Origin: Hirudinaria manillensis | Taxonomy: Eukaryota > Annelida > Clitellata > Hirudinida > Hirudinidae | Assembly: GCA_034509925.1 (NCBI GenBank) | Contig: CM067536.1 | Location: 460,001-524,000 of the forward strand | Direction: 5' to 3' | DNA: 64,000 nt | In this document: piece by piece, positions 6,976 to 62,287 of the stretch | Layout: each line of letters starts with the position of its first letter | Position numbering within the stretch: the first letter of the stretch is position 1 | Notes under the pieces: model-generated | The model's input: the letters and a program-made list of their open reading frames with translations, nothing else | Database searches by the model: none | What the model was told of the DNA's origin: nothing | Made by a program: the position numbers and the translations under genes

Positions 6976-7090
6976 GACGGCCGGTGCTTCAGATTTGCAT
7001 GCTGGATGGCTGGAGGAGGAATTAAATGAAGGAATTCAATGTCTAAGATGTACAGTAGAATAACGAACATCGTAGTTGTAAATAACGCTA

Positions 7091-7095
7091 CATAA

Positions 7096-7131
<36 letters not shown>

Positions 7132-8852: not shown

Positions 8853-8894
<42 letters not shown>

Positions 8895-26385: not shown

Positions 26386-28369
26386 ATGATTCTATTGTGG
26401 ATTGGAACATATCTCCTCTTATCCCTAGTTACAGGTAAGAAATCCTTTCTGAAAACGATGGTTAATTTGTTTGCCAACATTGATGTAATATGTATAATGA
26501 AGTTCCCTTTGGTATTCATACCTAATTTTTTGCATTTAAATGAGTTTAATCTTAGGACTCCATAAAGATAGACATGTGGTAAGAAAGGATGGGCCTCTGG
26601 AAATGGATTGCAAGCACACGTTAGAAAATATAACAAGAATCATGTGGGACTATATTTCAACGTATGATGACAATGAAACCATCTATGACAGTCAAAATCC
26701 TGATAAAACTCTAAAAGATGGTTTTGAGGTCTCCTGTGAACCACATGAAACATTGATATCAAACTGCAGTCTCAAATTGGTTCGAGCAAGAAATGAAGAT
26801 TCAGGAAAATATATTTGTTTTGTTGGACAAGAAAATGAAACAATGCTGGATTCTGAAACATTGAAGCCTGTTACTGAGATTGAGTTGGTTGTAAAAGGTG
26901 GTTATAGCTCTATGAATTTTATTAAACCCTGTGGTTAAAACTTAAATCCAATGGTTCAACATAATAAATAAAGTAATTGTGTTATCTGAATGAAAACCCC
27001 ATTGTTATAAATGTTATGAAGTAGTGATGCAGTTTGATTTTTAATGAATTTTTGTTTGAATATTATTATTTGAATGATTACTTAGAACCAAAGTATAAAA
27101 CAATGGTGATAAACCAAGGCGATCAAATTTTTCTTCCATGTGAACACAACATAAAAAATTTAACACGAGCAAGATGGAGCCATGTTTCAACAAAGGATGT
27201 TATAACTAATGCTGTTTATAACATGCCTGCAAAAGAAACATCAAACAAGAATTATGAAGTTCAGTGTGAACCTCATGAACTTTCTTGTAATCTCAAAATA
27301 CTTGAAGCAAACAAGGAAAGTGCAGGAAAATATATTTGCTTGGTTGGAGAATCACAAGAATTTGAAGAGAAATATGGTTTGGATTCAATGACACATTTTA
27401 TTGAAATAGAACTTGTTGTTGGAGGTAAGTGGTTGTAAATATCAATTATTAAGTTTTATAAATTCACTAAATAAAATTTATAAACAGAATTGGAATGCAA
27501 TGAAAACATGAAGAAAGACCTAACTTTTCTTGGAGAAAATGATTGCTATGGAATAGAAGCAGATGTTTTAAATCTGAAATGTTCTTTCAATTACTTTGGC
27601 AACATCAATTATAACCTTCTTCATCTCAGATGGATTGAAAAATATAAATTTAATTCATTGGAAAAGAAATTAAATTCATCACCAATAAACCATGAAGTGA
27701 AAGATGAAACAAAAAAGATTTCAATTCAAACCAACTTATCTGTTGCTTATGAGATGCAAAACTCAATATTTCAATGTGTTTTGGATGATATTCAAGTCAA
27801 ACCATGCCAGTTGCATGAGTTCAGAACTCAATGTGAGGCAAATTCTTGCTATTACAACAATTGCCTTTAATGTTTGTTATTTTCACTACATTCAATATTT
27901 CACATGATTCTACCATTAATTACTACTCCAGATATTAAAAACACCACAGAAAGATCTCCACCCATATACTTTAATAACCTCCACAACAAGAAATGTTTGG
28001 TCAACAAGAGTGCAAATGTCCAATGTTCATATTATTGGGTTCATCAAATTGCAGGAGCCATGCTTGAAAATCCTTATGCAATCTTGCCTGTTGAAAACAT
28101 GAACTCACCTGGTATTTACACCTGCATTGCCAAATGTCAACAGGGAAACAAAAAAGAGTGCATTATTGAAGCCATGGAGGTTGAAATTATTCAAGGTTCA
28201 AAGGTTGAATTACATTCAACATCAAACGTAAACATTGGTTAGTACCCCATCTTTTACACGACTGTTTATGTTTAGTGGATGATATTTGTGTTTGTTTTTC
28301 AGGGTTATTAGTTGCATTGGTTATGTTGGTTCTTATAAATTTGATTGTTTTATCTTATTTTGTGATAAG
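26386..28369 (+). CDS. Gene A ectodomain and transmembrane exons
   Basis: The signal peptide reads MILLWIGTYLLLSLVTG. Ig1 has the Cys-Trp-Cys core (LEMDC, IMWDYIS, DSGKYICFVG) plus an extra Cys pair around SCEPHETLISNCSL. Ig2 has LPCEHN, ARWSHVS and SAGKYICLVG. Ig3 has LKCSFNYFG, LRWIEKY and IFQCVLDD. Ig4 has VQCSYYWVH and GIYTCIAKC. The transmembrane helix is GLLVALVMLVLINLIVLSYF, followed by a basic residue. Potential N-glycosylation sites (NIT, NLT, NSS) occur. Ig1 and Ig2 are related to each other, pointing to internal duplication. The domains are Ig-like by core residues; the exact Ig subclass is unclear. Confidence 0.8.
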
Positions 28370-31118
28370 GTTGGTTTTTGTTTTGATTAATGAGAGTCAA
28401 TTTTAGACAAAATGTTTAATTTTATGATAGGCACTTAAGTTACACTTATGTATTTTGTAATGACATGTAAAGGCATCAAATGATTGAATAAATACACAAA
28501 TAAATATTAAAATATTGAAATGAAAATCCCATAAATGTTGCTGTCAGGAAGAAACAAATTCTTAAGATAAAGATTTTGTGATTGTGTAGACCTCGCCAGA
28601 ATGAGGGTTAGATTTGATTTTTAATGTTGATTAAAGGTTCTATCTAGTATTGTTTATTGTGAGGACATTGTTTTGTTAAGTACAGATGACATCTCAAGTT
28701 TAATGCTTCCAAGTTTTATTAAATATTATAGCATTTTCAAAATCTCTATCTTAAAGCTTGACTTAGAAATAAGTTGGAATGTAACATTTTTCATTTTTGT
28801 TTGTCTTGCTAAATATAAATTATTATTGAATATTTGATAAAACTATTCAGATGCAGGACATGATTCGTCCGTTCCATTAAACTTTGAGGCATTTCAAGAT
28901 ATTATTATAAAGTGGTACGACATCTTGATATATGAAATGTAAGTGATTTACTTGAAATTTAATTTTAAATTATTGAATAATAAAGATTTATTTAAACCTT
29001 TTGTTATTAAACTTTAAATGTTTAAATTGACTTTTATTTGTATTAAAGGAATATATTTCTAAATTTTATTAAATAACAAATTGTTTCAATTGAACTCATT
29101 TATGTCATTGTTATATGTAATTTATCCAGATTTTCTGAATCCATGTTATGTTTTAGGATGAATTATGGAAAGGAGGTAAATGTCTCTAGTACCAAAAAAG
29201 GTTTTAAGGATCCAGATGAAATGCTCCAACTTTTGCTCGGATGTCAGCCCAATCCACAGCATGTATGTTTTTCTCTGCGTTCCTTGTTCCTCGCTTGCTT
29301 CCTCAGACATGTTATGATGTTACGACTGAATGCTTAAAACTTTGGTGGTTGATGAGAAAATCACCAAATTTTTCTGTTCCAAGAAATTTCACCACAAATT
29401 ACATTGTAGATTATTAAACATTAAAGCATTATTATTATTATTATTGTTATTATTGTTATTATTATTATTATTATTATTCTTGCATTAAACATTTTTCCAC
29501 ATTTTTAGTTGTTAATTGATGAAAATTATGATGAAGACATTGTTAGGAAATTAAAAACATTTAAAGAGGTGAAATCTATTAGATTTCTAAGTGATGAAAC
29601 TGAGGTGAGCTTGAATTTTTAAAAATATGTTTTGTATCAAACATATAAATTTATATAAAGCCATATATTATGGGAATATAATATGAACAATTTCTGCATT
29701 CGTGGGCAGCACTTATAATAATATTTATATAATTCGGGCTCATAACAATTTTTTAAAAGGTTTTATTTATCTTTTAGAAGCATTATGTTACTAAAATTGA
29801 GATTCAAGAAAATGGAGTGGAGGAAACGTGCACTGAAAATATTAAAAATAGATCGGAGTATTTGGAAGAACACATTGATACCATTAATATCATCATTATC
29901 AAAACATATCAAGAAAGTTTGGATTGTGAAGACAATGTCAAAGGTAAATAATTCAATAATATAACAATAATGGGGATTATAAAAAGTCATGATTAATCCA
30001 TCATTAATTTGGCTGCAGATTATTGCCACTAATGAGTCTCACCATTGATTAATCCAACTGATCAAATTGTAATATATTGCAAATGAACCTAGTTTTTATG
30101 TTAATAAAAGATCTTTAATATGTATTTCAAATTGATTCAAATTAATTAAGTCTGCTATCTGCTATGCAAGTATCGTATTTGAATAGAACTGATTAGGTCA
30201 TAATCAAGTTTATGAATGATCTCAATAAAAGTAGACATTCCCTCATTTCATAATCACAACTGATTATAATTCTCCAAAGATCTTACAAATAATATTAACA
30301 CAAATTAATTTCTAAAATTCTCCATGCCTAGCATAAGACGTGCAAATATCATATTTGAATAGAAACTGGTAACATAAGTTCATAAGTGAGCATTTGGATA
30401 GTATGACATTGTTTTCAATGCCTTGAACTAAATAGAAATCACAAATTATTAATAAGTTATTAATACATTTTAAATAAATTATCTATAAGTCTCACTGATT
30501 CTGGCTTTGATGAGGAACATTGTCAGTGATAAAAATGGAGAAGATAAAAAAGTGAACCACTACTAAATTCATGATGAGTGTTGTGACCCTTTCCAAGGTC
30601 TTTTGTTACATGACATGAATTTAGTAGTGGTTTTTACCTCTCTTTATTGATTTTTTTAACTTCATTATAACGTGAAGCTGTTAGGAGCTCACAGTCAATA
30701 TTATTATGAATTATCAGTTTCTGATGATATCCTGTCATATGTCAATGCAAGAATGATAGAAGACCTTTGCAAAGAAAGATTTCCCAAAGTGGCCCACGTC
30801 GTTTTTCTCAGTCAAATTTCTCAGAATATCGTTTTGGATTGCCTGCTTTGCAGCCAGAATCCTGTTGGTGTATTCTTTCCTTTATTGAATTTGATTATTA
30901 TTAAAATGTACCAAGTTATTGGCTTAACCTTGTTGTAACTTAGCCATTTATTAACTTCTGCATGGATAAATATTTTAAATTCATTTATTACTGTTAAAAC
31001 CTTATTAAAGTAACAATCTTCCAGCAATTTATTTGGTTTCCATGGCCCATGGAATCAATTCAATTCTTTACTTGTTTTCTAGGGCACTGATTTCAAGAGT
31101 CTCATCATCAAGCGCAAG
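26386..31118 (+). CDS. Gene A: four-Ig transmembrane protein with cytoplasmic spermidine-synthase-like domain
   Basis: Exons: 26386-26434 (signal peptide), 26556-26897 (Ig1), 27086-27424 (Ig2), 27488-27832 (Ig3), 27932-28237 (Ig4), 28303-28369 (transmembrane), then 28851-28938, 29157-29262, 29509-29604, 29778-29943, 30685-30863 and 31083-31118 (synthase-like). Ectodomain exons are all phase 1-1. The cytoplasmic exons align in order with genes B and C, whose sequences match spermidine synthase clearly. Here the domain is the most decayed: the GGGDGG motif has become LLIDENYDED and the catalytic segment reads INIIIIKTYQ. The exon for the NEYYELVKSKL block was not found. A small exon linking 28369 (phase 2) to 28851 (phase 1) is required but not located. 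The C-terminus is uncertain; KRK may be followed by a short exon with a stop near 31342. Confidence 0.75.
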
Positions 31119-40971: not shown

Positions 40972-41002
<31 letters not shown>

Positions 41003-41782
41003 CATTACAATATATATATATATATCATTACAACCATAAATACTGGTTTAATTTTTTAAATTATTGTAAAATCAACCAGAGTGGCACCATCTAGCTATGA
41101 ATGTCAAGAATGGAAATCTGGAGCAGTTTTCACAATTATACCCTTTAATAAAAGCCTGAAACTCTGAATTCTCATTTACAAAGACATCAATATTAGTACC
41201 TCTTATGACCAACTCAACTTCAGTGATGGGATTCAATTTCATTTCATGTTCTTGTCCAACATAACAAATATATTTTCCTGAATCTTCCTTTCTTGCTTGA
41301 ATCAATATGAGACTGCATTTTGATATCAATGTTTCATGTGGTTCACAGGAGACTTCAAAACCACTTTTTAAAATTTTGTTGGGTTGTTGAGTGTCATACA
41401 AGGTTTCATTTAAGCCTTCAAGTGTTGAGTTTGAAATAAATTCCCATTTAACTCTTGTTACTTTTTCTAATTCATGATTGCAATCCAATTCAAAAGTTAT
41501 ATTCTCTCTCACCAGGAATCAGTCCATTTTAGGATCTGAAAACAATTTTAGACAAATAATAAATAGATCTTCTCAGAAGTGAATTAGTTCTTTTATATCA
41601 AGCATAAGCAAACTACATTAAATTGTAAACTTTTACAAACCTTACTAACTTAATAATCAGTAACATTGATCATATTCATTGTTTGACTTCAAGACTACGT
41701 TTTAACAATTGAAGGACTCACCTCCGACAACAACGGAATAACTGACGACTATAAAAAACCCTAGAATCATGACTAGTTGCAT
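34042..41782 (-). CDS. Gene B: four-Ig transmembrane protein with spermidine-synthase-like domain; carries an in-frame stop
   Basis: Exons on the minus strand: 41782-41722 (signal), 41535-41200 (Ig1), 40838-40500 (Ig2), 40427-40080 (Ig3), 39902-39600 (Ig4), 39484-39430 (transmembrane), 39354-39317 (basic juxtamembrane), then 37397-37289, 36344-36252, 35974-35815, 34999-34916, 34733-34585 and 34086-34042 (synthase-like, ending in TAA). Splice phases match genes A and C exon by exon. The SAM-site segment reads VLAIGIQNVNIVEDLL (GGG lost) and the catalytic segment DIIINNLSYPQ. The first synthase exon (ending IYE in A and C) was not found; three short alternative exons may replace it. A TGA at 41521-41519 interrupts Ig1 where A and C have Arg, so B is either a recent pseudogene or uses an alternative acceptor. 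Confidence 0.75.
37860..38920 (-). repeat. Tandem intronic repeats with short alternative linker exons in gene B
   Basis: Segments beginning near 37866, 38215 and 38755 share long stretches (AACAGTTAACCTGTTCC or a close variant, a CTTTAAATGAATTTCAATG-type block, then TTTTATTTG.GAATGT). They carry short possible exons on the minus strand: 38919-38859 (DSSATNNAQEGESMPL), 38356-38326 (EEIKEVQTSKR) and 38006-37985 (EEIKEVQ). Each has AG/GT boundaries, enters in phase 1 and exits in phase 2, so exactly one at a time could join the juxtamembrane exon (exit 1) to the first located synthase exon (entry 2). This layout would suit mutually exclusive exons, which is an inference. Confidence 0.45.
38985..39492. 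repeat. Inverted duplication of the transmembrane exon
   Basis: The plus strand at 38992-39049 carries an intact-looking transmembrane exon (GLIAIIVILLCVILCVILL) with AG acceptor and GTTAGT donor. It is nearly the same as the gene B exon on the minus strand at 39484-39430. The similarity continues about 40 bp past the donor on both arms. The arms are about 100 bp and face each other across about 300 bp, so the DNA or RNA could form a hairpin. The plus-strand copy has no neighbouring exons in phase and is probably a relic. Confidence 0.8.
39317..41782 (-). CDS. Gene B ectodomain, transmembrane and juxtamembrane exons
   Basis: Signal peptide MQLVMILGFFIVVSYSVVV, donor GTGAGT. Ig1 (FELDC, VKWEFIS, DSGKYICYVG) contains the premature TGA five codons into the exon. 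Ig2 (LQCEHN, ARWSHVS, SAGKYICMVG) is the most divergent Ig2 of the three genes. Ig3 differs from gene A at only about five residues plus one insertion. Ig4 has LCSYYWVH and GIYTCIAKC. The transmembrane helix is GLIATIVILLVILCVILL; the following 38-nt exon encodes a Lys/Arg-rich segment (IMIRKIAKRTK), consistent with a cytoplasmic anchor. Confidence 0.78.
40974..41025. repeat. AT dinucleotide repeat in gene B intron 2
   Basis: Two AT runs are separated by CATTACAA, between the Ig1 and Ig2 exons. A nearby self-complementary stretch around 40928-40965 (CAAATTACTTATATATATAC and its near-inverse) could form a hairpin. Confidence 0.9.
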
Positions 41783-42303: not shown

Positions 42304-45300
42304 ATGAAAATAATCATCCTTTTTATAATTTCGACTATTGTTATCAGGAGTCAACTTAGTCTCAACTTAGGTGAGAAGAACTTTGCTGATGTTATGAGAA
42401 TCCACTTTGGCATTTTCCAATATTTATGATGCAAGAATTAAAATAAATACGATTTTCTTCGAATTGACGTTAAAATAGATAGTTAATAAATGTCAATTCC
42501 CATTGAATTATAAATACTTAAGTAATATTATTTCAAAAAAATGTCTTTAAAGAGTTTAACATTAAAGGTTCTAATCATCAAACAGTTCATGATGGACAGT
42601 GTAAATTGTAACGAACGTAACTAATTGTGGTCTAGTAACGTGTTATTTTTTCTGATTAACTGCAACCTTAATTCAGTTGCAAACCTAACGCCTGTAATTG
42701 TAACTGTAATTTTGGATGATTAATTTTGCCATCATATAGTTTGTAAATAATGATTATATTATCAAATGCTTTTAATTTGCAGCTTGGATTATCTGCATTT
42801 TTTGAATATTAAATTTAGCAATTATTTATAGAACCAAAAAGGGATCGATTTGTGTTGAGAGAGCATACAAAGTTTGAATTGGATTGCAATAACAAATTAG
42901 AAAAAGTAACAAGAGTTGTATGGGAGTTTATTTCAACCTCAACACATGAAGACTTAAATGAAACCATATACACCATATATGACAGTCAACAACCCAGCAA
43001 TACTTTAAAAAGTGGTTTTGAAGTCTCCTGTGAACCACATGAAACATTGATATCAAAATGCAGTCTCAAATTGGTTCGAGCAAGAAAGGAAGATTCAGGA
43101 AAATATATTTGTTATGTTGGACAAGAAGTTGATGCTGAGTTTGACTCCAATGCATTGAAGCCTGTTACTGAGATTGAGTTGGTTATAAGAGGTTATTACA
43201 AATTGTTATTAAATTTAAATGCAAATTAATTTTTTTATTTTAATGTCCTTGTTTTTAGTAAAAATGATTTGCATAAAGCAAGTTTATAATTTATCTGAAT
43301 GAAAGAGAGAATCTTCATTTCGATCCAGATTATTTCTTAAGTTAAATTTGTATGATTACAGTTTCTAAATTTATCAGGATATAAAATTAAATTGTATTAA
43401 AATCAGTCAACTACATTTATGAAATTATATGGCATGTTATCATAACTCAAGAAATGCCTTAATTGAAGGACCTACATACAAAACAATATTAGCAAACAAA
43501 GGTGATCCAATTATTCTTCCATGTGAACACAACATAACAAATTTAACACGAGCAAGATGGAGCCATGTTTCAACAAAGGGTGTTTTAACTTATGCTGTTT
43601 ATCACATGCCTGCAAAAGAAACATCAAACAAGAATTATGAAGTTCAATGTGAACCTCATGAACTTTATTGTAATCTGAAAATACTTGAAGCAAACAAGGA
43701 AAGTGCAGGAAAATATATTTGCAAGGTTGGAGAATCACAAGAGTTTGAAAAGAAATATGGTTTGGATTCAATGACACATTTTATTGAAATAGAACTTGTT
43801 GTTGGAGGTAAGTGGTTGTAAATATCAATTATTAAGTTTTAATAATTTAATAAATTCACTAAATTATAAACAGAATTGGAATGCAATGAAAATATGAAGA
43901 GAGACCTAACATTGATTGGAGAAAATGATTGCTATGGAATAGAAGCAGATGTTTTAAATCTGAAATGTTATTTCAATCACTTTGGCAACATCAATTATAA
44001 CCTTCTTCATCTCAGATGGATTGAAAAATATAAATTTAATTCATTGGAAAAGAAATTAAATTCATCACCAATAAACCATGAAGTGAAAGATGGAACAAAA
44101 AAGATTTCAATTCAAACCAACTTATCTGTTGCTTATGAGATGCAAAACTCAATATTTCAATGTGTTTTGGATGATACTCAAGTCAAACCATGCCAGTTGC
44201 ATGAGTTCAGAACTCAATGTGAGGAAAATAAGATTTCACTCAAGTTGTTATTATCAAATTAATTAATGATGTGATGAATTATCATTAAGATTTAAAATTT
44301 GATATTGTTGATAGAATAATTATTTAATATTATTTATAGAATAAATTTATTTAAATGAAAGTTTTTGCACTCAATTTTAAAGAATTTTAAATAAGATCAT
44401 GGAGAGCTGAGAATTTTGACACGTTTCCCATAAATTGAGATTTAATTTGTTTTTTTTTATTCCTGCTTATATTGTTATCATTTAACAGTTGACTAATTAG
44501 TTAAACAGTTTAAAAGCAGGAGTTAAATCAATATGTGAGGTTCTTGATAATATATATCAAGATGTAAAGTATTTCCCAAAAAAGTCTCCATCGAGATACT
44601 TTTAATATGAACCCTAATTGAGTTTGTCATCCAATATTAACAAAAGTATCATAGGTCTGTTACAATGGTTGCTCTTGGCTGATATTTCCAGATTTGTCCT
44701 TAAAACGGCATCACAAAATTAACTCCATTTGTAGATTGTTATCCATTAGTTAGTCAGCAACCATAATGCTTATGCAAGGGATATTTTAAATATTGATTCC
44801 TTCAGGGGTCTCACCTCGAGGTTCTTGGTAATCAGATAAACAAGCAATTCAGGAAAAAATAGTACATGGAAATATGATGGAGAGAAATCAGTTTGGAATC
44901 TTTGTTGAGGAACTGTAGAGATGAATTTTAAACAATTTTTAAATTGAATCAAGTGAAAAATAAGATATTAGATGCTGGAAACTCCTCCACGGAGCTTTCC
45001 GACAGGGATCCTCAGAGAAGGTCCCCCATCTTCGAACGTTGTGGGCCGCATCCGGTGATCAGCCGGATGTCCCTGCCGGTTTCCATGTGCGGACTCAAAA
45101 GCTTAGGCTTTGGAAGGCTCTCATTGGCCTCTTTATGCCATCACGTGCCAGACTGGAGCGACTACTGAAAGCTCTCGTTGGCTTCTTTCGTCGCTGCACT
45201 CAGTCGCTGAAGCGACGCCACCTAGCCCCTACGACTCTCAGTGGCCTTCTTTCCGTCATCCCTGCCGCCCAACAGTATCGACTTGGGCTTTAAATTTTCT

Positions 45301-48300
45301 TTGCAGCGGCGCGCGGTAACAGACATTTCCGTCACCGGCTCCGCGCCTCTCGGGCGATGAATTGCTTCGGTGGATTTATTCTGACCGGAGATCGGCGGCT
45401 TTCTCCGGTCCTTTCGCTGTGGCATCCGAAGATGTTTCCTTGCCTCTCATTTGCCAGATCCAGAACGAAGCTGCCTCCGCCGCTTCAGACATCTTTGTCA
45501 TCGTCTTCGTTCTTTCTCGGCTAGATAGGCCTATTTTCGTGAGGAATGCGTAAGTCGACTTGCCGACTACGCCCCTTGCGCCAACTTCTATTGGGAAGAG
45601 GTCAATTCTGAACCCTTTCGCTTCCAGGTCCACCGCCAGATCTGCATACTTTTCCGCTTTTAGCACATTGCTATATTGCATTCTGTCCTCCCATGGGACC
45701 GTCAACTCCACCAAAATGATGGCATCTGACGACGGTGACATCAACGCAATGTCCGGCCTCTTGCCACTCTCAATCAGCACCTGGGGATAGTGCCTCATTC
45801 CTTCTAAGTCGGCTGCGACTGTCCAATCGTTTGCCTCTGCAAGGATGTCCTTTCTTGGCGTTTTACATCGCTTTCTGCAGAGGTGTGCGTGGCCCTCGCG
45901 CAGGAAGTAAATCTTCCGCTGCTTGGAGATTGCGCGCGAGTTTGCTCTGGTTACTGCTGCTTTGGTGGCCTCACACACTTCTCGAAGAACCTGATTGTGT
46001 CGCCACGTATACCGACCATGGGCAAGGGCGTATGTGCAGTTGCTGAGCACATGATGCAGTGTCTCGGCTCCGTCGCAGAGTCCACATTTGGCGTCTTCTA
46101 CTAACCCCCACCTCCTTAAATTGTCCTTGGAAGGCAACTGATTATAAATCGATCTTACCGCAAAGGCCAGCCGGAGCGGGGACAACTTCCATAAATCGCT
46201 CCAGGTAAGGGACCGTTCGATCACACCCTCCCAAGTTGTCCACTTACCCTGTTGTGCTAACTGTACGGCCTTTGTGACTCGATCTTGTTCCTCTTTCCGC
46301 CTCCTCTCCTGGCCAATCATCGTACCTCTAGTCGATGAGCTGGCCTGGGACCATTTTTGGAAGTGGTTCCATCCCACTGCGTGACGGTCTGTCTGGATAG
46401 GACCTCTTACTTCTTCGAACATCAGTACATTTACTGACTCGTCGATCTCTTTCTGCGCTCGGAACTTCTTTCCAGATCTGAGCAGTGGATTAACTTCGCG
46501 GATCCTGTTGTCCGCGGAGTTATTGAGCATCCACTGCGTTCGGATTTTGGAGAGTTTGTACTCCTCCACGATGGACCTAAGTGGCAGTCTAAGGCTCGTG
46601 CTCCTGCTGTAGAGGGCAACCGACGACAATGCTAGAGGTAAACCCAGCCATGTCCAGGTGTGCCGATTGATTTTCCTCTCTAGCCCCTCTACCGCCGATA
46701 GACCAATCTCATAGATGGTCAAAGGCCAAAGGAGTCTGGGCAGGAGCACAAACTGCAAAAGCCACACTTTGAAACGACCCTGGAGCGGCGCCGCCTCGAT
46801 CGCTTGCAGCCCCTTACTGGTTTGCGTGACTATGGCGTTCTTCATGCTCTCGTCGGTGAGCGAGTCGTCAAACATCCTTTTTAGACTCTTCACAGGCTCC
46901 TCGGATACTGTGGGGATTCGTTGTCCCGCCACCTCGAAGAACGCGTCCCTGCAAATTTTCCCTCTAACCAAAGAGAGACTCCTGGACTTCGCAGGTTTGA
47001 AGGCCATACGACACCATCCTAGCAAGTCGTCCAGCTTGTCCAGGGTTTCCTGAACGATTCGCTTCCTATTCATAATCAGGGTGGTGTCGTCCATGAATGT
47101 CTTTATTGGAGGCATGTACACACCCTTGCCAATGTGCGCCTCTGGAATGTCGGACCCAACTGCCTTCAGTAGGATCTGCATCGCCAGTACGAACAGGGTC
47201 GGATAGATCGCACACCCCATGGCAATCCCGACCTCCAGAGGAACCCATCTCGTCGTGTACGCTTGGGTGGAGAAACGCATCATGAACCCTTTAAAATATT
47301 CCTGGAGGATATGGATAACGGGCTGAGGCACATGGTGTGCCTCCAACGTCTTCCACAGGAGTTGATGCGGCACCGACCCATATGCGTTTGCTAGGTCCAG
47401 CCACACTACGTACAGACTCAACCGGCCCCTCCTGGCCCTCTGGATCGCCTCCCATATCATGGAGGTGTGTTCGATGCAACCAGGTACACCTGGAACTCCT
47501 CCCTTTTGGACAGATATGTCAACGTACTGGTTAGCCATCACAAACTCTGTGAGCCTCGATGCCATTATGGAGAAGAATATCTTCCCCTCTACATTCAGCA
47601 GTGATATGGGTCTGAATTGATTCAGATCCCTGGAGTCTTTCTCCTTTGGAATATAGACGCCCTCTGCCTTTTTCCATTCATCGTGGATCGTGGCGGAAGA
47701 CCACGCCCCCTCGACGAGAGAATACAGCAGATATAGTGTCTTGGGGCATCTCTTGTACAGGAGATATGGAACTCCATTGGGTCCTGGCTGAGCGGTTTCT
47801 CGCTTTTCTAACGACTCTTTTCACCTCCTCGAGCGAAGGAGACGCCATACAAAAGGGGCTGGCTGGCAGCGGCACCGCCGGAATGTCCAGCCTTTCCTGA
47901 AGAGCTTCGTGATGGAGGAGGTCACTATAGGTTCTGACTAAGTGTTCCTCCAGTTTTTCTTGCTCTACAGTAAGCACACCCGATTTTGGAGGATCTAACA
48001 GCGACCTCCCACACTTATAGGGATCGCTGAAGAAGCTTCTCATAGCTTTCCTCCTCTCGTATTTCCTCTTCCGCGCTCTTTCAGCTCCGCGCAAGTCCCT
48101 CACACGTCTTTTAACGTCCTCCCATAGGACGGAGAGTCCTTCTCTCTCATCTTCGTTGGCCACTTTCCACCGCCGGCGGAGCGCCTTTTTCTCGCCCTTT
48201 AGGCGTTTAATGTCGCGCTGAGGCCTGGATTCATACACCTTCTGAGGTTCCTTTGCAGGGATGACCCCAAACTTTTCGACACATTTGTCGTAAATGAAGT

Positions 48301-49521
48301 CGCTGAAGGACTTCACTGATCCATCCTTCAGGACTTTATTCAGCCCTCGCTTCAGCTCCTCATCCAGTCCTGACCAGCTTTCCTTATCGCTTCCTCGAGG
48401 GAACCTGATCCTAGCTCTCGGGGGGTCTTGTCCTGGCATGAGACTCGGACACACACGGAACTGTGGTGTGACTCCGGTCCGGTGTCGTCCGGCGTTTTAT
48501 AATATATTATAACAGATTATGAAACTTTAAATTATAATTTGGAAAATTGGAAAAGATATCATATGTTCACAAGCTCAAACATTGATAATGGAGTTATGGT
48601 ATTAGTTGTCAACATGAAATCAATTATTTAATATTTTAATTTATTCAAATCATCAGATGTCAGAAACACCACAGAAAGTCCTCTACCTTTAAACTCCAAT
48701 GACCTTCAAAATAAAATCTGTTTGGTCCAAAAGAGTCAAAATGTTGAATGTTCTTATTTTTGGGTTCATGAAAGACAAGGATCCATGGCTGAGAATCCAC
48801 ATGCAATGTTGCCTGTTGAAAATATGAAATCACTTGGTATTTACACATGCTATGCAAAATGTGATGTTGGAAATCATAAAACTCATTGCATCATCAAAGC
48901 TATGGAATTTAAAGTTATTCATGGATCACATACATCGGGCCTAATTGGTTAATATTTGTTTATTAATTAATTGCTTTTAAGTTAATGAATTTAATTTCTT
49001 TATTCAGCATTTTCTGAAATGAAAAATTAATTATCCTTCAGGTTTAATAGTTATTCCAATTATACTGGTCTTAGCAGCCTTAATTGTTGTGATTGTGTTG
49101 AGGTTGGTGATCAATTTAGTTTGGAAATAATTGAAATATTTAAATGCCATTTCCTGCATATTTGTGAAAATTTTAATTTCAAGAAAGAAAAAAGTTCTTT
49201 TCTGGAAAACAAATAGAAATAAACAGAAAGAAACCACAGAAAATAAAGGTAATAATAATTGTAATATATAGAAACATTCTGATAACAATAATATTCCTTT
49301 TAATGCTAGATATTTAACAAAATTAACAATTGTGCTCATATTATATTTACATATATATTTACATATTTACATACATATTTAAAGAAATATTTCATAAAAA
49401 ATTATAGTGACATGATAAATAACTTATTGTAAATTTGTAATTTTCATTGCATTTGAAGATGAACATGAAATTGTGGGTTTATTGGATCAGAAAAAGCAGG
49501 AGGGAAGACATGAAGAAGATG
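42304..49521 (+). CDS. Gene C ectodomain, transmembrane and juxtamembrane exons
   Basis: Signal peptide MKIIILFIISTIVIRSQLS, donor GTGAGA. Ig1: FELDC, VVWEFIS, DSGKYICYVG. Ig2: LPCEHN, ARWSHVS, SAGKYICKVG. Ig3: LKCYFNHFG, LRWIEKY, IFQCVLDD. Ig4: VECSYFWVH, GIYTCYAKC. The transmembrane helix is GLIVIPIILVLAALIVVIVL, then RKKKVLFWKTNRNKQKE, a strong cytoplasmic stop-transfer signal. Ig3 to Ig4 is split by a 4.4-kb intron that contains an antisense R2-type LINE. Ig1-Ig4 exons are all phase 1-1, so domains can be skipped or swapped without loss of frame. Confidence 0.82.
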
Positions 49522-52500
49522 GTAAATTTATATTTACATCTATATTTGCATTTATTTATCCAATTTTTAACATGCTTGATTTTATCCCAAAGGGTTGTAA
49601 GGGCACCAACAAACAATACTATTGGACAAATGACAGCAATGTAGCAGATAATTAATAAAATTAAATTAAAATTAAAGAATAAAATTAAAATGAATATCTT
49701 GGTGCAAATGAGGAAATTGATAAAAATAAACACGATAAGAGCAAAGAATAGTAGGATTAATAAATCATAAATTTTGAGTTTGGATCGGAAGGTTTCTGAC
49801 GCCAGAGGAATATTTGGAGGAAGTGCATTCTATGTCTTAGGAGCGCTGACATAGAAAGCCCAGTCACTTTGCCTCACACTTCAAGACCTTGGAACGCCTA
49901 GGGTCCTGCTATCAGAGGAACAGATTGACTCCCTACCAAGAATGGCCATGGTGCTTGTAAGTAACGCAGCCAGATATTGAGGGGCATAACCTGTGGCAGC
50001 TTCATAGACCAGCTGAGCAATCTTATATATTATTCTGTCCAAGATCTTCAGCCAGTGAAGGTTCACCAGCATTGGAGTGATGTGCTTCGATGACCTCCCT
50101 CCAATTATAAGTCAAGTGGCTGGGTTCATGACGGCTTGGTAAGTGTTGATGACCTGAGAGCTGGCATTGACCAGCAGGGAGTCAAGCAAGTATGAATTGC
50201 AGGTGACCAAAAGGCTTCAAGCCTCAGGAATGGCTTTGCTTCCTTGAGGATGTGAAGTTTGGCATAGCAGGTGATGGTGACCTGAATGACATGGGGTTTC
50301 AACCCCAAAATTCCTGACTCTCTGTGGAGGAGTTATGGATGAACCTGCAAACTGGAGAGGGAGGTCACTAATCTGATTGAGTTGAGCAGGGGTGCCAAAA
50401 CAGTTTGCTTTTGTCTTGTCAGCATTAACTAGTAGATGATTGGATAGTTGCAAGTGCTGTCCAGTTACGCCTAACAAGGGTTGGGGCATCCTCAAGGCTG
50501 CAGTGACCATAAATCTGAGTGATGTTGATAATTGGAGGGTCCATGTTTGGAGATGATGCCCTCAATATTGGCCACAAGGTCAAGAGTATCGGTCCCAAGA
50601 CTGTACCCTACGAAACGCCCGATTGCACTAGGTGGGGGTTGCTGACTGAATATGGCCACAATATTGTGCAATTGGTCCTGCGTAATGAGGCATAATTATT
50701 AGAAATATTTCGTAAGGCAATATTATTATAATTTTTAAACACTTATAATTTAACGTGAAATTTTCATTGCATGTGAAGTTGAACATGAAACGGTGGAGTT
50801 AAGAAATGAGGGAAGAAATGAAGACGATGGTAAAATATTGTAATGAGGCATCATTTTAAGAAATGTTTTATTATATAATATTACATATTGTTATATCCGT
50901 GGTAATGCTTAATTAAGAGATAAGTTGGTGTATCAAGTGTGTTCTTAATTTCAAAATAAGGATTACGAGCTCTAGCAATATTCAAAAAAAGTCTATAAAT
51001 ATTAATTATTACTAAATAATAAATATAATCAACTATATTTATAAGTAATAAATTTATAATAATATTTATATAATTTGGCCAATAACACATATAATAAGTT
51101 TTAAGCATAGTTATAATTTAACACAAATAAAATTTGTGTGGCATGACAAGTTGGACATAGGAACCAAGAGAAGCAGCAGAAAAGAGATGAAGTAGATGGT
51201 AAATAAAAACAATGATTCACTTTATTTCGAACTTTTTTTATATTTACAATTATTTCCACTAATTTTAATTAATTAATTTGACAAATATTTTTTAATTAAA
51301 TTGCTTTTAATAACTTGCAATCAGAAGATGAAATCACCAGATTGCCTCAAGCACCAATCAATCCTTTGAAAGTCAAGAAGATGTTGCATGAAAAAAAGAC
51401 GAAGCATCACGAAATCAAGATTTATGAGGCGTAAAATTTTGTTATGTTTTGTTACTTTGTTAAAAGCATCTTGGTAATAAAATCCTTTTTATAAGCTTTC
51501 TTTGAACTTGTACAAATACTTTTTAAAAACAGAACTGATAGTGATTATGGAAAAGTATTGATGATTGATGGAGCCATGTGGGATGCAGAATTGGAGAAGT
51601 TTTCGTATCAGAAAATGATGACTGTCCTTCCAATTAGGAGCCATCCGAATCCTAGGAAAGTGAGTTTTATTAACAAATCTTACCAATACCTGATATTTTG
51701 TTAAAAAATTTGATGATGTTATTGTTATATTAATTACATTGACACCATTAAAATTGTTATGCTATTAAGTTGCATATTAAGTCAGCATTGAGGGTTCAAC
51801 TGTTCTTATGGAAACATTAATTTCATTTGTAAATTTATTTTCAATGCAGGTGTTGGTCATTGGAGGAGGTAAAGTAAGACTTGTGAAGAAATTGGTGAAG
51901 AATCCGGAAGTGGAATCCATAACAGTGTGTGAGGTTGATGAGGTCAGTTCTCAAATTTTGATATTTGACTTTGAGTTTTTGAAGCTAGTGATTCCTATTA
52001 TTCAAACTGCTATGCAGAACATATTATGAAGATAAATATGAAGTTTAGTCTAATAGAGGAGATAAAGATATATATATATATATGTAGATAAGTGTGGCTT
52101 ATCAAACTATTAAAAGTCTTCTAAAGTGTTTAATTGAATAAAAGATTATGAATAATATAATAAATCAATTAATAAAGGAAACTTAATTAGATGTTGTAAT
52201 AATACAAACTATTATATTTTCTGTAAAATTTTATTGATTGTTTCAAATTATAGTTTTTGAATTAATCTCTTTTAATTTATTAATATCCATTTAATTCAAT
52301 TTGCAAAAAATTAATAATAAATGGATCATTGTTTAGAATAATTAGATTGTTTCTTGTTCCATCCAAATATTTTCATGATGACTTTAACCCAGGAACTCCT
52401 TGCAATGTGTCGAAATTATGTTCCATCATGGACTCCATCATTGGATGATGATAAGGTGAAGATCAACATTGAAGATGGATTTGAATTCTTAAAGAAAACT

Positions 52501-55500
52501 GAAGATACATTTGATGTCATCATCAACCATTCATCAAATTCTGAAGGTGGATTTGGAACTAATAATTAATTTTGTATTTCATTTTAAACACTTTAATGTT
52601 TAATAAATATATTCATGAAATGGATTCAAAATATTAAATTCTAAATTTACAATTATAGTTGAAATTATTGGAATAAAAAATAAGAAATTTAAATAAAACT
52701 CAATGTTATTTGCAGGTCCATCCAAATATCTCTTCACCAATGAATATTATGAACTTGTTAAATCTAAACTTAACAAGAGAGGAGTGGTGGCGTCAATTGG
52801 TTAGTTAGTATTGGTAGTGCAAAGCATACATTAAAATGTAGGAGTATTTAATAATTTAATTGTTTAATAAATTGAACATGTTAGTAATTATTAGATCTCT
52901 AACAACACAAAATGAGGTGCTTTACATTTCTTATTATTTATAAAAATTTTATTTACAAATACTAAATATATAATATAATTAGTCACATATTAATGCTTAT
53001 TATCATAGTCAATGGAAAAGACAAATCAGGATCTGACATCTTAGAAGAAACAACAATGAAGTTCTGCAAACAACTTTTCCCTGAAGTTCATTATTTTTAT
53101 GCTCATGCATTCAATCATCCAAGTAGTCTTGTCAGGTCCCTTGTTTGCAGTCTCAATGAGGTGAGTTTATTTTTTAAATATTTTGGTTTTCAAGTTAATA
53201 ATTACGCAATTTATTGAAAACATTCATAGCTTCTGGTTCTGCTGATTTAAATTAAATATTTAATAATTTAATAATTTAATGTTTGTATCAATTATTAACT
53301 ACTCATTTTTTTCACTTTGTGTATTTTTTATTTCTTTTTTTGGAACTTTTTTCCTGCTTAATGAAAGATTAATTTTTGTAGTTAAAACAGGAGTGATTTA
53401 GGAAAATTAATTTCCATTAATGAGTTTTTGTTTTTCCTGGAAGGATATTGATCTTAGACAGTGCTTTGGCAAGATGAATGGTGAATATGCACTTGGTAGA
53501 CTCAAGAAAGAGTTACTAGATTTTTATTTATTGAAATATTGATTTAATTTCAACTTTTGATCTTTCATTGCTCATGTCTGAATCATTTAAATGCTTATTA
53601 TTTTAAATTACACAATTAAATTGATAATTTTAGCTGAGTAAATATAATTAATTAATTTAATTATTTAAATTATTTGTTTAATTCAGCCACCCTGCAAAAG
53701 TTTGTGGAATGAGATCTATAAACCTTGCAAAAAAACCTCAGTTACTTCAATCATCTGAGCTGAAAGCTCAAATCCTTTGAGCATTGCTGCCTCATCACCA
53801 ATCCTTCTCTTTTTCTACAAAATAATTAATAACCTAATATTTAATGATTTCACTAAAGATATCCCTAAAGCCACATATTCTTCAGCAAGAGGCCATCAAC
53901 TGAAGTTGAGATCAAAATTATGTGCAATAGCCTTAATTAAATACTTTTACACTAACTGCAGAATTTATATGATAGTAATTATGTAATTTATCTATTGCAC
54001 CAGTTGGCCACCTATTGAGATTGAAATTCTTTCTGGCCAACTGATATTATATTAATTTTTACTGTTTTTAGGGGGAAAAATATAAAAAACATAATAGATT
54101 TCAGAGCACTGCCATACCACAACAGACCGCAACAACGTGGACTATAAACCTTTGAACATCAATGCCTCATCTGTGATTTGTGCTTATGCTACTTAATAGT
54201 CCATGGTCTTGTTAAACCTAGCATTCCACAATTCCCTATGTTTCTAGACTCAAGAACCTGTGATCACCACCTTCGTTTATGCCAAGAGAAATGTTCCACT
54301 AGTCACAGGCAGCATTTTTTCATCAACCGAATTATCAAACCCTGGAACTCACTACCATATGACGTCATTAACTCCTCAACATTTTCTTGCTTCAATAAAT
54401 GCGTGTCATCCTTAAACCTAAATAACTACCTATCCATTAAGTGAACTTGATTTTCTGTTGACAATATTGTTGATTCTGTTTCACTCTATAAAGAAAATAA
54501 ATAATTAAATAAAAAATAATATTAAGAATGAAACTGTTTTCCTAATGTAGTCGTCTCATCTACTGATTGTTGATTCATTGATCTAATTAATGACTACAAC
54601 TTTTCTTCTTTCTGGATGTACATTTGACTTAAGTTTGTGCCCCTCTGGCATTGCTTTGCTGTTTGCATTCATGTTTGTCTGTCTGGCGAGCAGATAAAAG
54701 TCACCAACCCTCTGCTTGTCAAAATAAATAAAAGAAAAATCAAATAGAAATAATAATTAATTAGTTTAGGTTGCTTAATTGTGGCATCCTGATTTTGAAT
54801 ACACAAAGTTGTTGCTGCCCTTTATGTGAAATGCTTATTTAATGCAAAGGCCAATATTTTCACATTAGATTGGAGAAACTCAAGAAAGAATTGGAAGATC
54901 TAAAGGGAATTGGGAAAGTGAAGATCAAAGGTCTGCCAAAATTCTCAGATTTTGAAAAAATGTTCGAAAAGGAGATGAAAAAAAGAAAGAAATTAAGTAA
55001 TGTTTTACTTTTTATTTTAAACAACTTTATTTATTTATTCATTCAATCATTCGTTCATTCGTTTGTTTATTTATTTATTCATTTATGAACTACTTTGAGA
55101 AAATGGTGACAGAAGCAAATAAAAAAATTAGAAACTTGTGATAAAAAATGAATATAATATCATCGGTCGGCATTTATACCAATAAAAGACTAATTGGATA
55201 CACTGATTTCTATTTAAAACATTGATGTAATGCAATAATATAATGAGGTTTTTATTTATACATGTTCATAAAATTTGGATGATTTTTGTTCATTTAAGCA
55301 ATAAATATGACAGCAGATTATTGCCTTTTTATATATAAGACTACCAAAAACATTCTCTACCATCTATTTAGGATTAGAATTTATTACAGGTCTTATTTTT
55401 TTGGTGGAAAAAATTTTAAATAATGTAATTTTAGTTTAATATTAATTTAATGCCTTTTTATGTACTTCAGATGATGACAGTGATAGTGATGACAGCGATG

Positions 55501-58500
55501 ACAGCGATAGTGATGACAACGATAGTGATGATAGTGATGATGGGAATCACCCAAGACTTCATTCAAGGTTATTTATTGTAATTAAATAAAAAATAATATT
55601 AAGAATATGAAACTCTCTTCCTCATGTAATCATCTCATCTACTGCCTGCAGTTGATTCATTGATCTAATTAATGGCTGCAACTTTTCTTTTTGGATGTAC
55701 ATTTGACTTAAGTTGTTGTTTGTGCCCCTCTGGCATTGCTTTACTGTTTGCATTCATGCTTGTTTGTCTGGCGAGCAGGTAAGAGGCACCAACCCTCATA
55801 TCAACGATCATATCATTTATATTAGTAATTCTTCTATATCTAGGGTTGAATCTTGTAGATTTCTCGGCGTCATTATAGACCAGCATCTGTCATTCAAACA
55901 ACATATTCAGTACATAGCGGCAAAGATCTCCAAAAATATTGGCTTAATTTATCGCATACGTCGTTATATAAATATAAAAACAGTAATTACATTGTATTAT
56001 TCATTTATCTATCCATATTTAAACTATTGTAATTTAATTTGGGCTTGTAACTACTCAACTTGCTTAAAACCCTTACTTAATCTTCAGAAAAAATTCTTAC
56101 GTGTTGCCCTTTGTTTGCCATATAATTCTCATACCGATTATGCATTTACAAATTTAAACATACTTAAAATTCATCAAATTAATAATTTCCATTTGGCCAT
56201 TCTCATGTATAAAGTAGATCATCACATGCTGCCTCGTCTTTTCGATAGCTTGTTTTCAAAAATATCCTCCTTACACAAATACTCTGTTCGAACGTCTAAT
56301 GCTTATAGACCGACTTTTGCTAAATCTGTCACTGGCTCTCGTTCTATTGTCTGTATGGGACCAAAAATTTACTCTGCTGTCCCGCTTAATATTACCAACA
56401 TTTCTAATCTTTATGCTTATAAGAAAGCATTAAAACATTTTATTATTAACTCTATCGGATTAATTTAACTACATGTTATTGTACTATATTTATTGTTTAA
56501 AAACATGCACCTTCTGATTAATGGAACCATTTAATTATATACCATCATTCCTAATTGTTTGTGTTAACTTTTCTGCTTATTGTGTTTCATGGGTCAGTCT
56601 ATTAGCGGAAGCATGTGCTTCCTTAAGGCTGGCCCTTTGAGTTTTATTTTTTTTGCTGCTCTTTTCAGTTTTTTTTTGTGTTAAATGAGGGAATTAGTAT
56701 ATAATAATAAAACTCGTAACCCTCTGCTTGTCAAAATAAATAAAAGAAAAATCAAATAGAAATAATAATTAATTAGTTTAGGTTGCTTAATTGTGGCATC
56801 CTGATTTTGAATACACAAAGTTGTTGCTGCCCTTTATGTGAAATGCTTATTTAATGCAAAGGCCAATATTTTCACATTAGATTGGAGAATCCTTTGAAGA
56901 AACTCAAGAAAGAATTGGAAGATCATCTAAAGGGAATTGGGAAAGTGAAGATCAAAGGTCTGCCAAAATTCTCAGATTTTGAAAAAATGTTCAAAAAAGA
57001 AATGAAAAAAAGAAAGAAATTAAGTAATGTTTTACTTTATATTTTAAACATCATTATTTATTTATTTATTCATTCAATCATTCGTTCATTCGTTTATTTA
57101 TTTGTTTATTTATTCATTTATGAACTACTTTGAGAAAATGGTGAGAGAAGCAAATAAAAAAATTAGAAACTTGTGATAAAAAATGAATATAATATCATCG
57201 GTCATCATTTATACCAATAAAAGACTAATTGGATACACTGATTTCTATTTAAAACATTGATGTAATGCAATAATATAATGAGGTTTTTATTTATACATGT
57301 TCATAAAATTTGGATGATTTTTGTTCATTTAAGCAATAAATATGACAGCAGATTATTGCCTTTTTAAATATAAGACTACCAAAAACATTCTCTATCATCT
57401 ATTTAGGATTAGAATTTAATACAGGTCTTATTTTTGGTGGAAACACAGTATTTTATAAAAAAAAATTCAAGTAATATAATTAGTTTAATATTAATTTAAT
57501 GCCTTTTTATGTACTTCAGATGATGACAGCAATAGTGATGACAGCGATAGTGATGACAGCGATAGTGTTATTACTGATGATGGGAATCACCCAAGACTTC
57601 ATTCAAGGTTATTTATTGTAATTGAGTTTGTACGTTGAATGATTGAAAAATTAATATGATGCAAGTCAATTTGAAATTAATTTTTGACAGAAACGATACA
57701 ATTTTAAATCCAATTGCAAAGGACTTTTTAGATGAGATTCAAGATGGTCGGTCCATCTTGGAACGTGAACGAGATAGTAGCAAGAACAGTAAAATAATTT
57801 TGGTTATGGTTTCATTGTTTAATAATTTGTCACTTTTTATTATAAAATGATTATTATGAAAATTAAAATTTTTTTATTATCACAAAAAGCACTTAATTTG
57901 ACTCTTAGTCTTCACTTAATTAAGATAATAATAGGTTACCATAACTCTGTAATATTGCAAATATAAACTTCCATTTTGGGTATTTTAAATATTTTGTTAT
58001 ATTCAATAATTCCATGATTGTCTTAAAGAGCAATAATTTTAAATAAATAAAGTCATTTAAAAAGGTAATATCTTTTTTATATAATTCTTCATAGAATTTG
58101 AAACAACAAATTTAATATTGTTGATGATTTCAATCAGAGATTAAGGTCATCAGAACGAATAAAGGAGACTATAACCCACTGACAAGCAGAAGAGAGATCC
58201 TCACAAAGAAGTCAGAATTCCATGACATTGTAATCTATGAATCGTAAGTTGATGAAATAATATTCCAATACTATATTTACAGGATTGAATGATGCACTCG
58301 ATTTTGGCTTTAATTGTTTTAAATTGGTTAGAACCTTATTATTGTTTCTTATCAAAAATAATTTAAAGTCAAGATTAGCATCTTGCAACCATGACACTAG
58401 CAAATTAATATTGAATAATGCATGCCAATATGTTGATAAATATGATAAAAATTAATTCAGTGTGAGCCATGAAAAAGTCTTATCCCTTGATGATACCCTC

Positions 58501-61500
58501 TGGGTCACTGAGTATGATGAATTCTTCCAGAAAATAATGTTCAGTCTTCCTGTAATTGGTCATCAGGAACCAAATGATGTGAGATTTGATACATTTCAAC
58601 ATTCACGTTGTAGATACTTTTAAAACATAAGAACTACAAACAAAAATATAATGCCTGGAGCCAATCAGAGTAAAGATCACCAGAAGACAATTAAATGACT
58701 ATGAATTGTCTCAGACTATTGTTTGCTCTTGCTCTCTTAGTTGATAAACTTGATTCTCCTTTTGGTCCAACTGACATAGTAGAAAAGAATAGAATGCCTT
58801 GAATGTGGAGCATTGAAAACCTTTCATAAAAGGAGTTTCTTTGAACAAAATCACTTGTTTTTCCTGCTCCTTGCCTTTCTGATACTAGATCACTCAAAGG
58901 TTCATCACAAAAGACCTGAACAGCAGTCACCACTCACTCACTCAGCAATAAATCAACTAATTTGAAATATAATTTTACAACCACAATTATAATGAATAAT
59001 ATCAAGGTCCAGGGTTGCTTCATCATGATTTCTTGAATGCAGGTGTTAGTGATTGGAGGAGGCGATGGTACAATTGTGAGCAAGTTGTTGAAACATCGCA
59101 ATGTGAAATTTATAACAGTTTATGAGAGCGATGAGGTGAGTCCAATTTCTTTTATTTTTATTTTAGAACTTATTTGAAATTGAAAACATGCAAATTATGA
59201 GGCTCTTTCAAGTCTTTCATAATATTCCTAATTCCCAATACTTAATATTTATTTTTTAAGCTACAGATAAATTATTGGAATAACAGAAAAATTAGTTGTA
59301 AAATTAAAAAATAAAGAGCTAACCTAAAGATAGTTATTGATAAATTGCAGAGCATATTGAAGTTAAGTCATGAACACTTCCCTTCTTTTGCCTCTTCTTT
59401 GAAAGATCCCAGAGTCAAACTTGTCATCGGAGACGGATTTAAATTCATGAAGACGCAGAGGAAGGCCTTTGATGTCATCATCAGTCGCTCAACAAGTCAT
59501 TTCATTGAATTGTTTTAATTTCCAGATTTTGATAATAATGATAACTGCAATGGAGTAATATTCTCGAGCAAAGAAGTTCGAAGTTGAGATTGAATGCCAA
59601 AATTACCTTGAGATATGATTGTAGGATTGAGATAGGATCATAGAACAACTGGAAATATTATCAAATTTTATTTGCAGATAAATATGAAACTTTATTTGGG
59701 AATGAATATTTTGAGGTTGTTAAAGCTGCATTGAAAGAGGGAGGTGTTAGCTCTTTATTGAGTAAGTTCTTGCCTTGGATTCATTAATCAATACTAGAGG
59801 TGCCCAACCACGTGTTGCTGTGGCTCAATCTGATTAATTTTATAAGAAAGAAATTTTCTAATAAGTTTATTTTTACAATTTCACAATGCTTGAGGGTTAT
59901 GATACTTTAAGCTTTTTCATGTCCATGGCAAGATGGCAGGATTTTCGAAAAAAGTTTATTTTGACATTATATAGTTGTGGTATATATATGATACCTATAT
60001 AAAAACACTCCCCTAATCGAGTACTATGTTGTGTCAAAATTTCAAAGCAATTGGTTAAGTACTTTCAGAGAATGTTTACATGATACAAACGCACATTGCA
60101 TTTTTATTTATATAGATTCAACTAAAATGAACATCAGTTAGCTAATAAATTTATAAAATCAAAAGATTAAAATATGCCAAAAACGTAAATAAAATATAAG
60201 ACATGAATCATTGAAATTATTTATGGTAATTTTTTAATTATTTGTATTCAAAACCAGGTAGTACAAGGTTTTCAAGTACTTGGCACCCTCACCAATGATT
60301 GAATTTTTATTTGTTAAATAGTCCATCCTAAATTAATTAAAATGTAATTAAAAATGTATAACTTGAGTTCCAGTACTACAAGTCTACAAACCATATCTAC
60401 AAAGGGAGCACATTCATGATGGCTTTAACTGAATTCATTTGCAGTCCAAGGGGGAGGTTCCGGGAAAAAGGACGTAATTAAGAACACACTTGCCAGATTT
60501 CTTATGGATCTTTTTGATGTCATACAATATTTCTACTTGCCTTGTTATGACCATCCTGGCAGTCTTATCAGATGCATTTTGTGCAGCCTCAATCCTGTTA
60601 GCTTTACATGTTTTTCTGTAATGTTTAAATTAAGGTATCAATTATTATTATTGTCAATTGTAATTGGATATTGCAATCATTACTGATATTAGGGAAGATT
60701 TTATTATTGATTTAGTTTTTTGTATTTGATTTTTACAAAAATGTTAGGGCTAGGTATGAGTGCATCAAACCCAACAAATTATATTAAATCTATTTGTACA
60801 ATTTTTCAATCTCATTCTATTTATTACTGAATTGTTTTTCATATCGAAATTGCTTTAGAGTCTCGATTTCTAAGTTAGATTCATTTTTGGCAGCATATAT
60901 TTATGCAAAACATTTCAGTTTATATTTATGTATAAAGTTTTACTTGAAAATTCTTGCAAAATTTATAATAATATACATTTAGTTATACCTATATCCTCTG
61001 GTCCCAATGATGTTGTACTATTGTGATACAAAACAGTCATCAAGCAGAATTCCGTTTTGTAATTTCTCAACTATGTTTATTTATAAATTTCATGATACTT
61101 TCCATTTGCTATCATTATTAATTATAAAGTTATAAAGTTGTCATTTCATTTTATTCATCATTCATGGCAAATTCATAATTTTAATGAAATCCGTCCCTAT
61201 TATTAAGGTCTGTTTATTACTTATTATTGATATTAAAAAGTACAAAAGAATGCTTTTGACGATACGACATTTAACATATGAGCCGTAATATTTTTTGTAC
61301 TATTTCCATATTAGTGTTCATTAATTAATTAAATAAAAATGATATAATAATGTCTTAAGTTAATTTAAATTATTTTAATGTTCCTAAAATTCTCACAGGT
61401 GATAGATTTTGAAAAATTCTTTGATGTGATGACTTCTCAGTTTCAAAGTGGCAAGAGGTTGGTGTATTAAAATCATAATCTGGCCATTTCAAATCATTTC

Positions 61501-62287: not shown

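Follow-up and report, generated by a model that had tools for sequence, protein, structure and literature searches.

Many receptors are known to carry a kinase, phosphatase or cyclase domain. A retired polyamine enzyme used as the tail of a receptor is unfamiliar, as far as the open-access literature examined shows. Invertebrates possess expanded families of immunoglobulin (Ig) superfamily receptors, for instance Hydractinia Alr and Botryllus fuhc, which are clustered and multiplied like the receptors described in this work; we know of no spermidine-synthase tails in these families. Dead relatives of polyamine enzymes that have acquired new roles are also known. Antizyme inhibitor and trypanosome prozyme keep the fold, have lost the chemistry and exert a regulatory role, as is proposed below for the receptor tails, but both are soluble regulators. 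The spermidine synthase itself (SRM; PF01564 and PF17284) shares with the tails both Pfam domains, the exon order and six intron phases. It differs from them in that the receptor tails have lost catalytic and amine-site residues and follow a transmembrane helix that is itself preceded by Ig domains.

Fusions of polyamine enzymes have been described, and one article (PMC12803844) mentions several of them. Bacteria possess AdoMetDC-synthase fusions, such a fusion also stands at the origin of the spermine synthase of animals, and Ustilago maydis possesses a synthase-saccharopine reductase fusion. A fusion between a membrane protein and an aminopropyltransferase-like domain is found throughout Fungi (Magnaporthe oryzae and relatives; PMC12803844), which makes the statement of the initial annotation that spermidine synthases lack membrane anchors too strong. 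When isolated, the domain of the fungal fusion produced neither spermidine nor spermine in E. coli; the authors allow expression problems as the cause of the missing activity, and cite work in which deletion of the fusion gene lowered spermine. The fungal protein thus resembles the receptors described here in joining a membrane part to an aminopropyltransferase-like domain. However, that part is presented as a membrane protein rather than an Ig receptor, and the words "immunoglobulin", "transmembrane" and "receptor" are absent from the accessible text of PMC12803844. No paper on an Ig-receptor/spermidine-synthase fusion was found in the open-access PMC full text, a result that does not by itself establish absence from print, and "spermidine synthase" appeared in none of the ten papers listed among 20 further matches.

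The window analysed here is a stretch of 64,000 nucleotides of Hirudinaria manillensis, bases 460001-524000 of contig C11 (9.59 Mb), in a genome of 148.4 Mb and 23 contigs. Beyond the window, bases 524001-714000 of C11 and parts of contigs C6, C13 (two genes) and C2 were examined. Rfam gave no match up to the gathering score. The sequence suggests a clustered family of type I Ig receptors with catalytically dead spermidine-synthase tails, which would signal as scaffolds and, in the better-kept modules, be switched by an adenosine-type ligand; we give this reading a probability of about 0.6. It would apparently constitute a new receptor class built from a recycled metabolic enzyme.

Gene C lies on the forward strand and consists of 17 exons (42304-53542) that encode 834 residues in one frame, with GT-AG junctions throughout and no internal stop. 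A signal peptide exon (42304-42370) is followed by four Ig exons, Ig1 (42832-43191), Ig2 (43469-43807), Ig3 (43874-44218) and Ig4 (48657-48947), and by a transmembrane exon with a phase 2 donor (49042-49102). Then come four juxtamembrane exons, the basic J1 (49184-49248), J2 (49459-49521), J3 (50779-50829) and J4 (51151-51198), and the tail exons S1 (51325-51430), S2 (51533-51659), S3 (51850-51942), S4 (52393-52546), S5 (52716-52799) and S6 (53009-53160). S7 (53444-53542) is the probable terminal exon with the stop, and a homologous sequence exists in gene H, where, by eye, the frame is kept for about 18 codons before a stop. The continuity that the initial annotation wished to see at 49102, 49184 and from 49459 to 51328 is provided by the transmembrane, J1-J4 and S1 exons, of which the juxtamembrane ones were picked by eye for phase fit and are therefore less independent than any other exons modelled. 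The Ig3-Ig4 intron contains long frames of 814 and 272 amino acids on the reverse strand (45376-48496), which resemble a non-LTR reverse transcriptase element.

Pfam recognised in the whole gene C model a V-set domain in two stretches (5.1e-11, 43.2 bits), Spermine_synth (1.7e-40, 139 bits; cut-off 22.9) and Spermine_synt_N (1.5e-07, 31.6 bits; cut-off 22.1). The tail by itself matched the Pfam spermidine synthase at 3.5e-41, and its residues 13-237 matched the human enzyme in the PDB at 7.9e-51, so that the suspected relationship of the cytoplasmic exons to spermidine synthase is real. Among the individual Ig exons, Ig1 alone scored 29.7 bits for V-set, above the cut-off of 26, and Ig2 23.3 bits, under it; Ig3 and Ig4 had no Pfam match. 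Hydropathy and exon layout predict a signal peptide and one transmembrane segment. From this predicted type I layout, and from the basic residues that follow the helix, we infer that the tail is on the cytoplasmic side.

The layout recurs in paralogues, as had been anticipated from the window, and the sequence indicates a family far bigger than the three genes recognised there. On C11, genes H (558.6-564.8 kb, forward strand, 795 residues), I (588.6-582.8 kb, reverse, 778 residues), K (608.0-616.0 kb, forward, 800 residues) and L (618.6-630.8 kb, forward, 795 residues) chain without internal stops. Together with gene C they share exon order, strand and phases, with GT-AG at each modelled junction; of the five models, those of C and H alone include a terminal exon. 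Gene K scored 118 bits for Spermine_synth (cut-off 22.9) and 36.3 bits for the N-terminal tetramerisation domain (cut-off 22.1), and in both genes scanned for it, C and K, Pfam places V-set and spermidine-synthase domains inside a single model. Contig C6 repeats this order and strand with Ig1-4 and six tail exons, the S5/S6 boundaries of which are uncertain. On contig C2 (13.52 Mb), in the segment 13518001-13528000 (local positions 4740-9920), Ig1-4 exons are followed by divergent S1-S3 tail exons, at which the examined sequence stops; the arrangement therefore extends past C11 and C6. Gene E of C11 bears Ig exons and only a weak tail remnant, and for genes F, J and N, also on C11, the exon templates gave no convincing tail chain. 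Searching the whole genome with the PF01564 profile gave at least 23 exon matches, 21 on C11 and two on C6. A single Ig1 exon used as genome-wide query gave 64 matches, some of them Ig2 exons, on contigs C1, C2, C6, C11 and C13, and the receptors thus form a clustered multigene family, a trait shared with allorecognition receptor families.

The spermidine synthase of H. manillensis itself is also encoded on C11 (694.55-691.89 kb; 694553-691888, reverse strand). It has its own ATG, was modelled through the seventh exon, scored 253 bits to Spermine_synth and has the human residue at each of the 18 active-site or pocket positions checked. All six intron phases compared are the same in this gene and in the gene C tail, and S3, S4 and S5 have identical lengths (93, 154 and 84). 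Such conservation of phases points to a duplication that retained the introns, and rules out a retrocopy origin of the tails. Bacterial contamination was rejected as well, these being multi-exon genes inside a 9.59-Mb contig. Judged from these sequences, the tails derive from a duplicated synthase gene like the copy that remains on C11. In the simplest history, an upstream Ig receptor gene would have captured synthase exons and then duplicated in tandem. Since a working donor copy with matching introns persists on the same contig, it could be followed step by step how exon capture gave rise to a class of receptors. In an unrooted FastTree tree the human and H. manillensis synthases group together (support 1.000), as do the C, H and I tails (1.000), and two separate captures are conceivable, but His49, Trp70 and His241 are common to both module types.

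About 4.4 kb upstream of the synthase, on the same strand, are the Ig exons of a further unit, N (C11 700938-698957, reverse strand). By eye, the frame of the first synthase exon has no stop as far upstream as an AG in phase 1, so that a read-through fusion could occur at this place; the scan of the N Ig3 exon gave no phase-compatible donor. This neighbourhood, in which a genuine synthase starts from its own ATG behind same-strand Ig exons, speaks for the view that Ig receptors and synthase-like genes are separate neighbours throughout and that the chained models join two transcripts. Other features fit it too. In all five genes (C, H, I, K and L) an unspliced transmembrane exon would run into a stop after at most 10 codons, and a short-tailed receptor form could therefore exist; S1 contains internal ATGs in six modules (C, H, I, K, L and H2), that of H2 coding for the third residue, which makes a translation start inside the exon possible, and internal methionines occur in the entry exons of the second modules H2, I2 and D1 described below. 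However, order, strand and phases are constant across five loci, and the exons that connect the two parts are found again in paralogues (C and E share J1, H and I have a related J1, and K and L contain J1-J3). Moreover, upstream of S1 the unspliced frame shuts within 9 codons in C, H, I, K, L, C6, H2, I2 and D1, and none of these nine tails has an ATG in frame on the stretch from the S1 acceptor back to the first stop. Separate transcripts are thus improbable, and Ig part and tail are very probably joined in one transcript.

In order to evaluate the tails as enzymes, nine modules (C, H, I, K, L, H2, D1, C6 and I2) were aligned with the human and H. manillensis synthases; the residue numbering was carried over from yeast by us. 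Glu124, Asp155 and Gly156 are kept in all nine modules and the full three-glycine motif (Gly101-103) in eight; we take Asp155, Gly156 and Gly101-103 to be residues of the adenosine half. Asp104 is kept in four modules and Glu208 in none (with a gap in two). Asp173, Asp176, Gln70, Tyr241 and Gln49 are lost in every module, and the H. manillensis enzyme keeps Asp173, Asp176 and Tyr241. According to two articles (PMC12812037, PMC10146546), Asp173 deprotonates putrescine, Asp176 anchors the diamine, Tyr241 positions the amine, and Glu124 and likewise Gln49 contact the ribose. The strong likeness of the tails to human spermidine synthase might suggest active membrane-tethered enzymes that make polyamines locally at the receptor. 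However, with the base, the amine anchor and Tyr241 replaced in nine of nine modules, this is extremely improbable. By its sequence, the tail is very probably a pseudoenzyme devoid of aminopropyltransferase activity.

Retentions and losses of this kind have to be compared with the general divergence of the tails. At the 151 positions that are identical in the human and H. manillensis enzymes, the modules keep on average 47.7% of the cells; 27 positions are kept and 36 lost in all nine, so the loss of any single catalytic residue is not rare. Random draws were used as a guide rather than a strict test, because positions are not independent and the modules share ancestry. On that footing, 53 of 54 cells are kept at Gly101-103, Glu124, Asp155 and Gly156, where randomly drawn conserved positions give 25.7 (3 of 20000 draws as high), and the nine positions on the aminopropyl/amine side keep 13 of 81 against 38.6 (189 of 50000 draws as low); for the six strictest amine-side positions the values are 4 of 54 cells and 118 of 50000 draws. 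Gln49 had also been counted as an amine-side residue, in a set that kept 1 of 63 cells (3 of 20000 draws as low). It was dropped from that side owing to its published ribose contact and the sets were recomputed; counted on the adenosine side, it gives 53 of 63 cells (218 of 50000 draws as high), a weaker result. At six positions all nine modules agree on a residue that differs from the one in both enzymes: Gln49 is replaced by His, Val53 by Ile, Gln70 by Trp, Val153 by Ile, Ala234 by Phe and Tyr241 by His. Three of these changes (Gln49, Gln70 and Tyr241) affect pocket residues. At ten pocket positions both enzymes have four acidic and no basic residues, and the modules have none to two acidic and three to five basic ones (K, R or H), gaps being counted as neither.

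The tails of the other two genes of the window are much more divergent. In gene A (forward strand), a signal peptide exon (26386-26434), Ig1-Ig4 (26556-26897, 27086-27424, 27488-27832 and 27932-28237) and a transmembrane exon (28303-28369) form an outer part of six exons that chain with GT-AG and no stop. Behind it are divergent S1-S4 (28851-28938, 29157-29262, 29509-29604 and 29778-29943), S6 (30685-30863) and S7 (31083-31118), whose intron phases equal those of the intact modules; S5 was not found. The initial annotation had left gene A to be joined between 28369 and 28851. The outer part is coherent, and none of 21 phase-compatible candidate exons bridges the gap convincingly. A short inverted repeat (CCACTACTAAATTCATG...) at 30551-30640, in an intron of gene A, looks by eye like a small mobile element.

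Gene B (reverse strand, about 41782-34000) comprises a signal peptide candidate, Ig1-4, a transmembrane exon (start 39484) and a basic juxtamembrane exon (start 39354); its divergent tail consists of exons S2, S3, S4 and S6 on the same strand, and S1 and S5 were not found. Its Ig1 exon (41198-41545, reverse strand) has an in-frame TGA near the fifth codon, and gene B may be a pseudogene, or the present allele may be disabled. Two profiles were used for these tails, one of the family (human and H. manillensis SRM plus seven modules) and one of the two SRM alone. The respective scores, flattered because the exon pieces were chosen by their likeness to the receptor-tail family, are 36.6 and 36.2 bits for A, 79.3 and 71.9 bits for B and 52.0 and 24.3 bits for S1-S3 of the contig C2 gene. 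None of 2000 shuffles reached either score in any of the three cases, the top shuffle score across the tests being 11.4 bits. Pfam gave no spermidine-synthase match for the gene A tail.

Decay is a further way to read such tails, which would then be functionless remnants of a duplicated synthase gene within the receptor. The loss of active-site residues in the modules, the very divergent tails of A and B, the premature stop in B and the weak remnant in E are all compatible with it. However, although synonymous changes have reached up to about 1.3 per site, the five models and the modules H2 and D1 are free of stops and their splice sites are intact, and the new pocket residues are identical in nine of nine modules. 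The ratio dN/dS (Nei-Gojobori; point values, within module type only, with C6 and I2 left out) is 0.50 for C-H, 0.63 for C-I, 0.58 for H-I, 0.44 for K-L, 0.44 for K-H2, 0.36 for K-D1, 0.50 for L-H2, 0.37 for L-D1 and 0.39 for H2-D1. It is thus below 1 in all nine computed pairs, but only moderately. Functionless decay is therefore unlikely, and a retained function of the dead fold is preferred.

In the proposed receptor, a signal peptide and four Ig-like domains would be directed to the outside, followed by one helix, a basic stretch and the dead synthase fold inside the cell. The Ig part would recognise a surface or foreign ligand, as likeness to other expanded Ig-receptor clusters leads us to infer. 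Binding would gather or rearrange the tails, and the synthase fold, which is a natural dimer, would relay the signal as a scaffold. For the better-kept modules we propose allosteric switching by an adenosine-type ligand (dcAdoMet, MTA, AdoMet or an adenine nucleotide). These two roles of the tail differ in strength. That it acts as a protein-binding or dimer module is probable; that the better-kept modules bind an adenosine-type ligand is a tentative suggestion. Since the tails of A, B and the contig C2 gene have no glycine motif, ligand binding cannot be general, and the function shared by the family would be scaffolding rather than ligand binding. The proposal of a new receptor class on a polyamine-enzyme fold gains from the transmembrane Ig family, the synthase-fold tails, the profile match and the recurring paralogues. 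Its suggestion that a SAM-like metabolite is sensed fits the residues kept in nine modules but not the divergent tails. With the tail, a connection of surface recognition to the intracellular state of AdoMet, polyamines or adenine nucleotides can be put to the test.

At three loci (C/D1, H/H2 and I/I2), two tail modules are located behind a single Ig-transmembrane part. D1 lies in the window (56881-60596, forward strand) and consists of an entry exon (56881-57023, phase 2 in), S1-S3 (58138-58243, 58461-58578 and 59043-59135) and S4-S6 (59351-59495, 59678-59761 and 60445-60596). The entry exon is present once more, with a copy that begins near 54869, and no Ig exon was found around D1 in 57000-61500. 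Between both entry exon copies is an open frame of 253 amino acids (55707-56468, forward strand), which we take to resemble the end of a reverse transcriptase. D1 is present on C11 in three copies (about 518-520, 525-527 and 533-535 kb, the first being 57959-60652 of the window) that are 96.9-98.7% identical over 2.2-2.7 kb; the stretches searched at the first and third copies gave no Ig exon.

The transmembrane donor is in phase 2, and at all three loci both the first tail and the first exon of the downstream module enter in this phase. In H2 and D1, the entry exons and S1-S6 are open with GT-AG and no stops; the entry exons and S1 of I2 are likewise open with GT-AG, and its remaining exons translate openly. 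Alternative tails are therefore possible. The first tail carries its own stop in C and H, and the second modules may be separate genes or relics. A more elaborate scheme, in which mutually exclusive splicing swaps pseudoenzyme tails and the pocket, once acidic and now basic, is a sensor of an intracellular anionic adenine nucleotide, is compatible with these sequences but unlikely.

The Ig exons have evolved differently from one another. Their dN/dS values range from 0.27 to 1.23. Among C, H, I, K and L, synonymous divergence is 0.20-0.46 in Ig1, 0.13-0.24 in Ig2 and 0.10-0.83 in Ig4, whereas in Ig3 it is 0.02-0.08. The low value of Ig3 with respect to the other Ig exons suggests gene conversion limited to this one exon.
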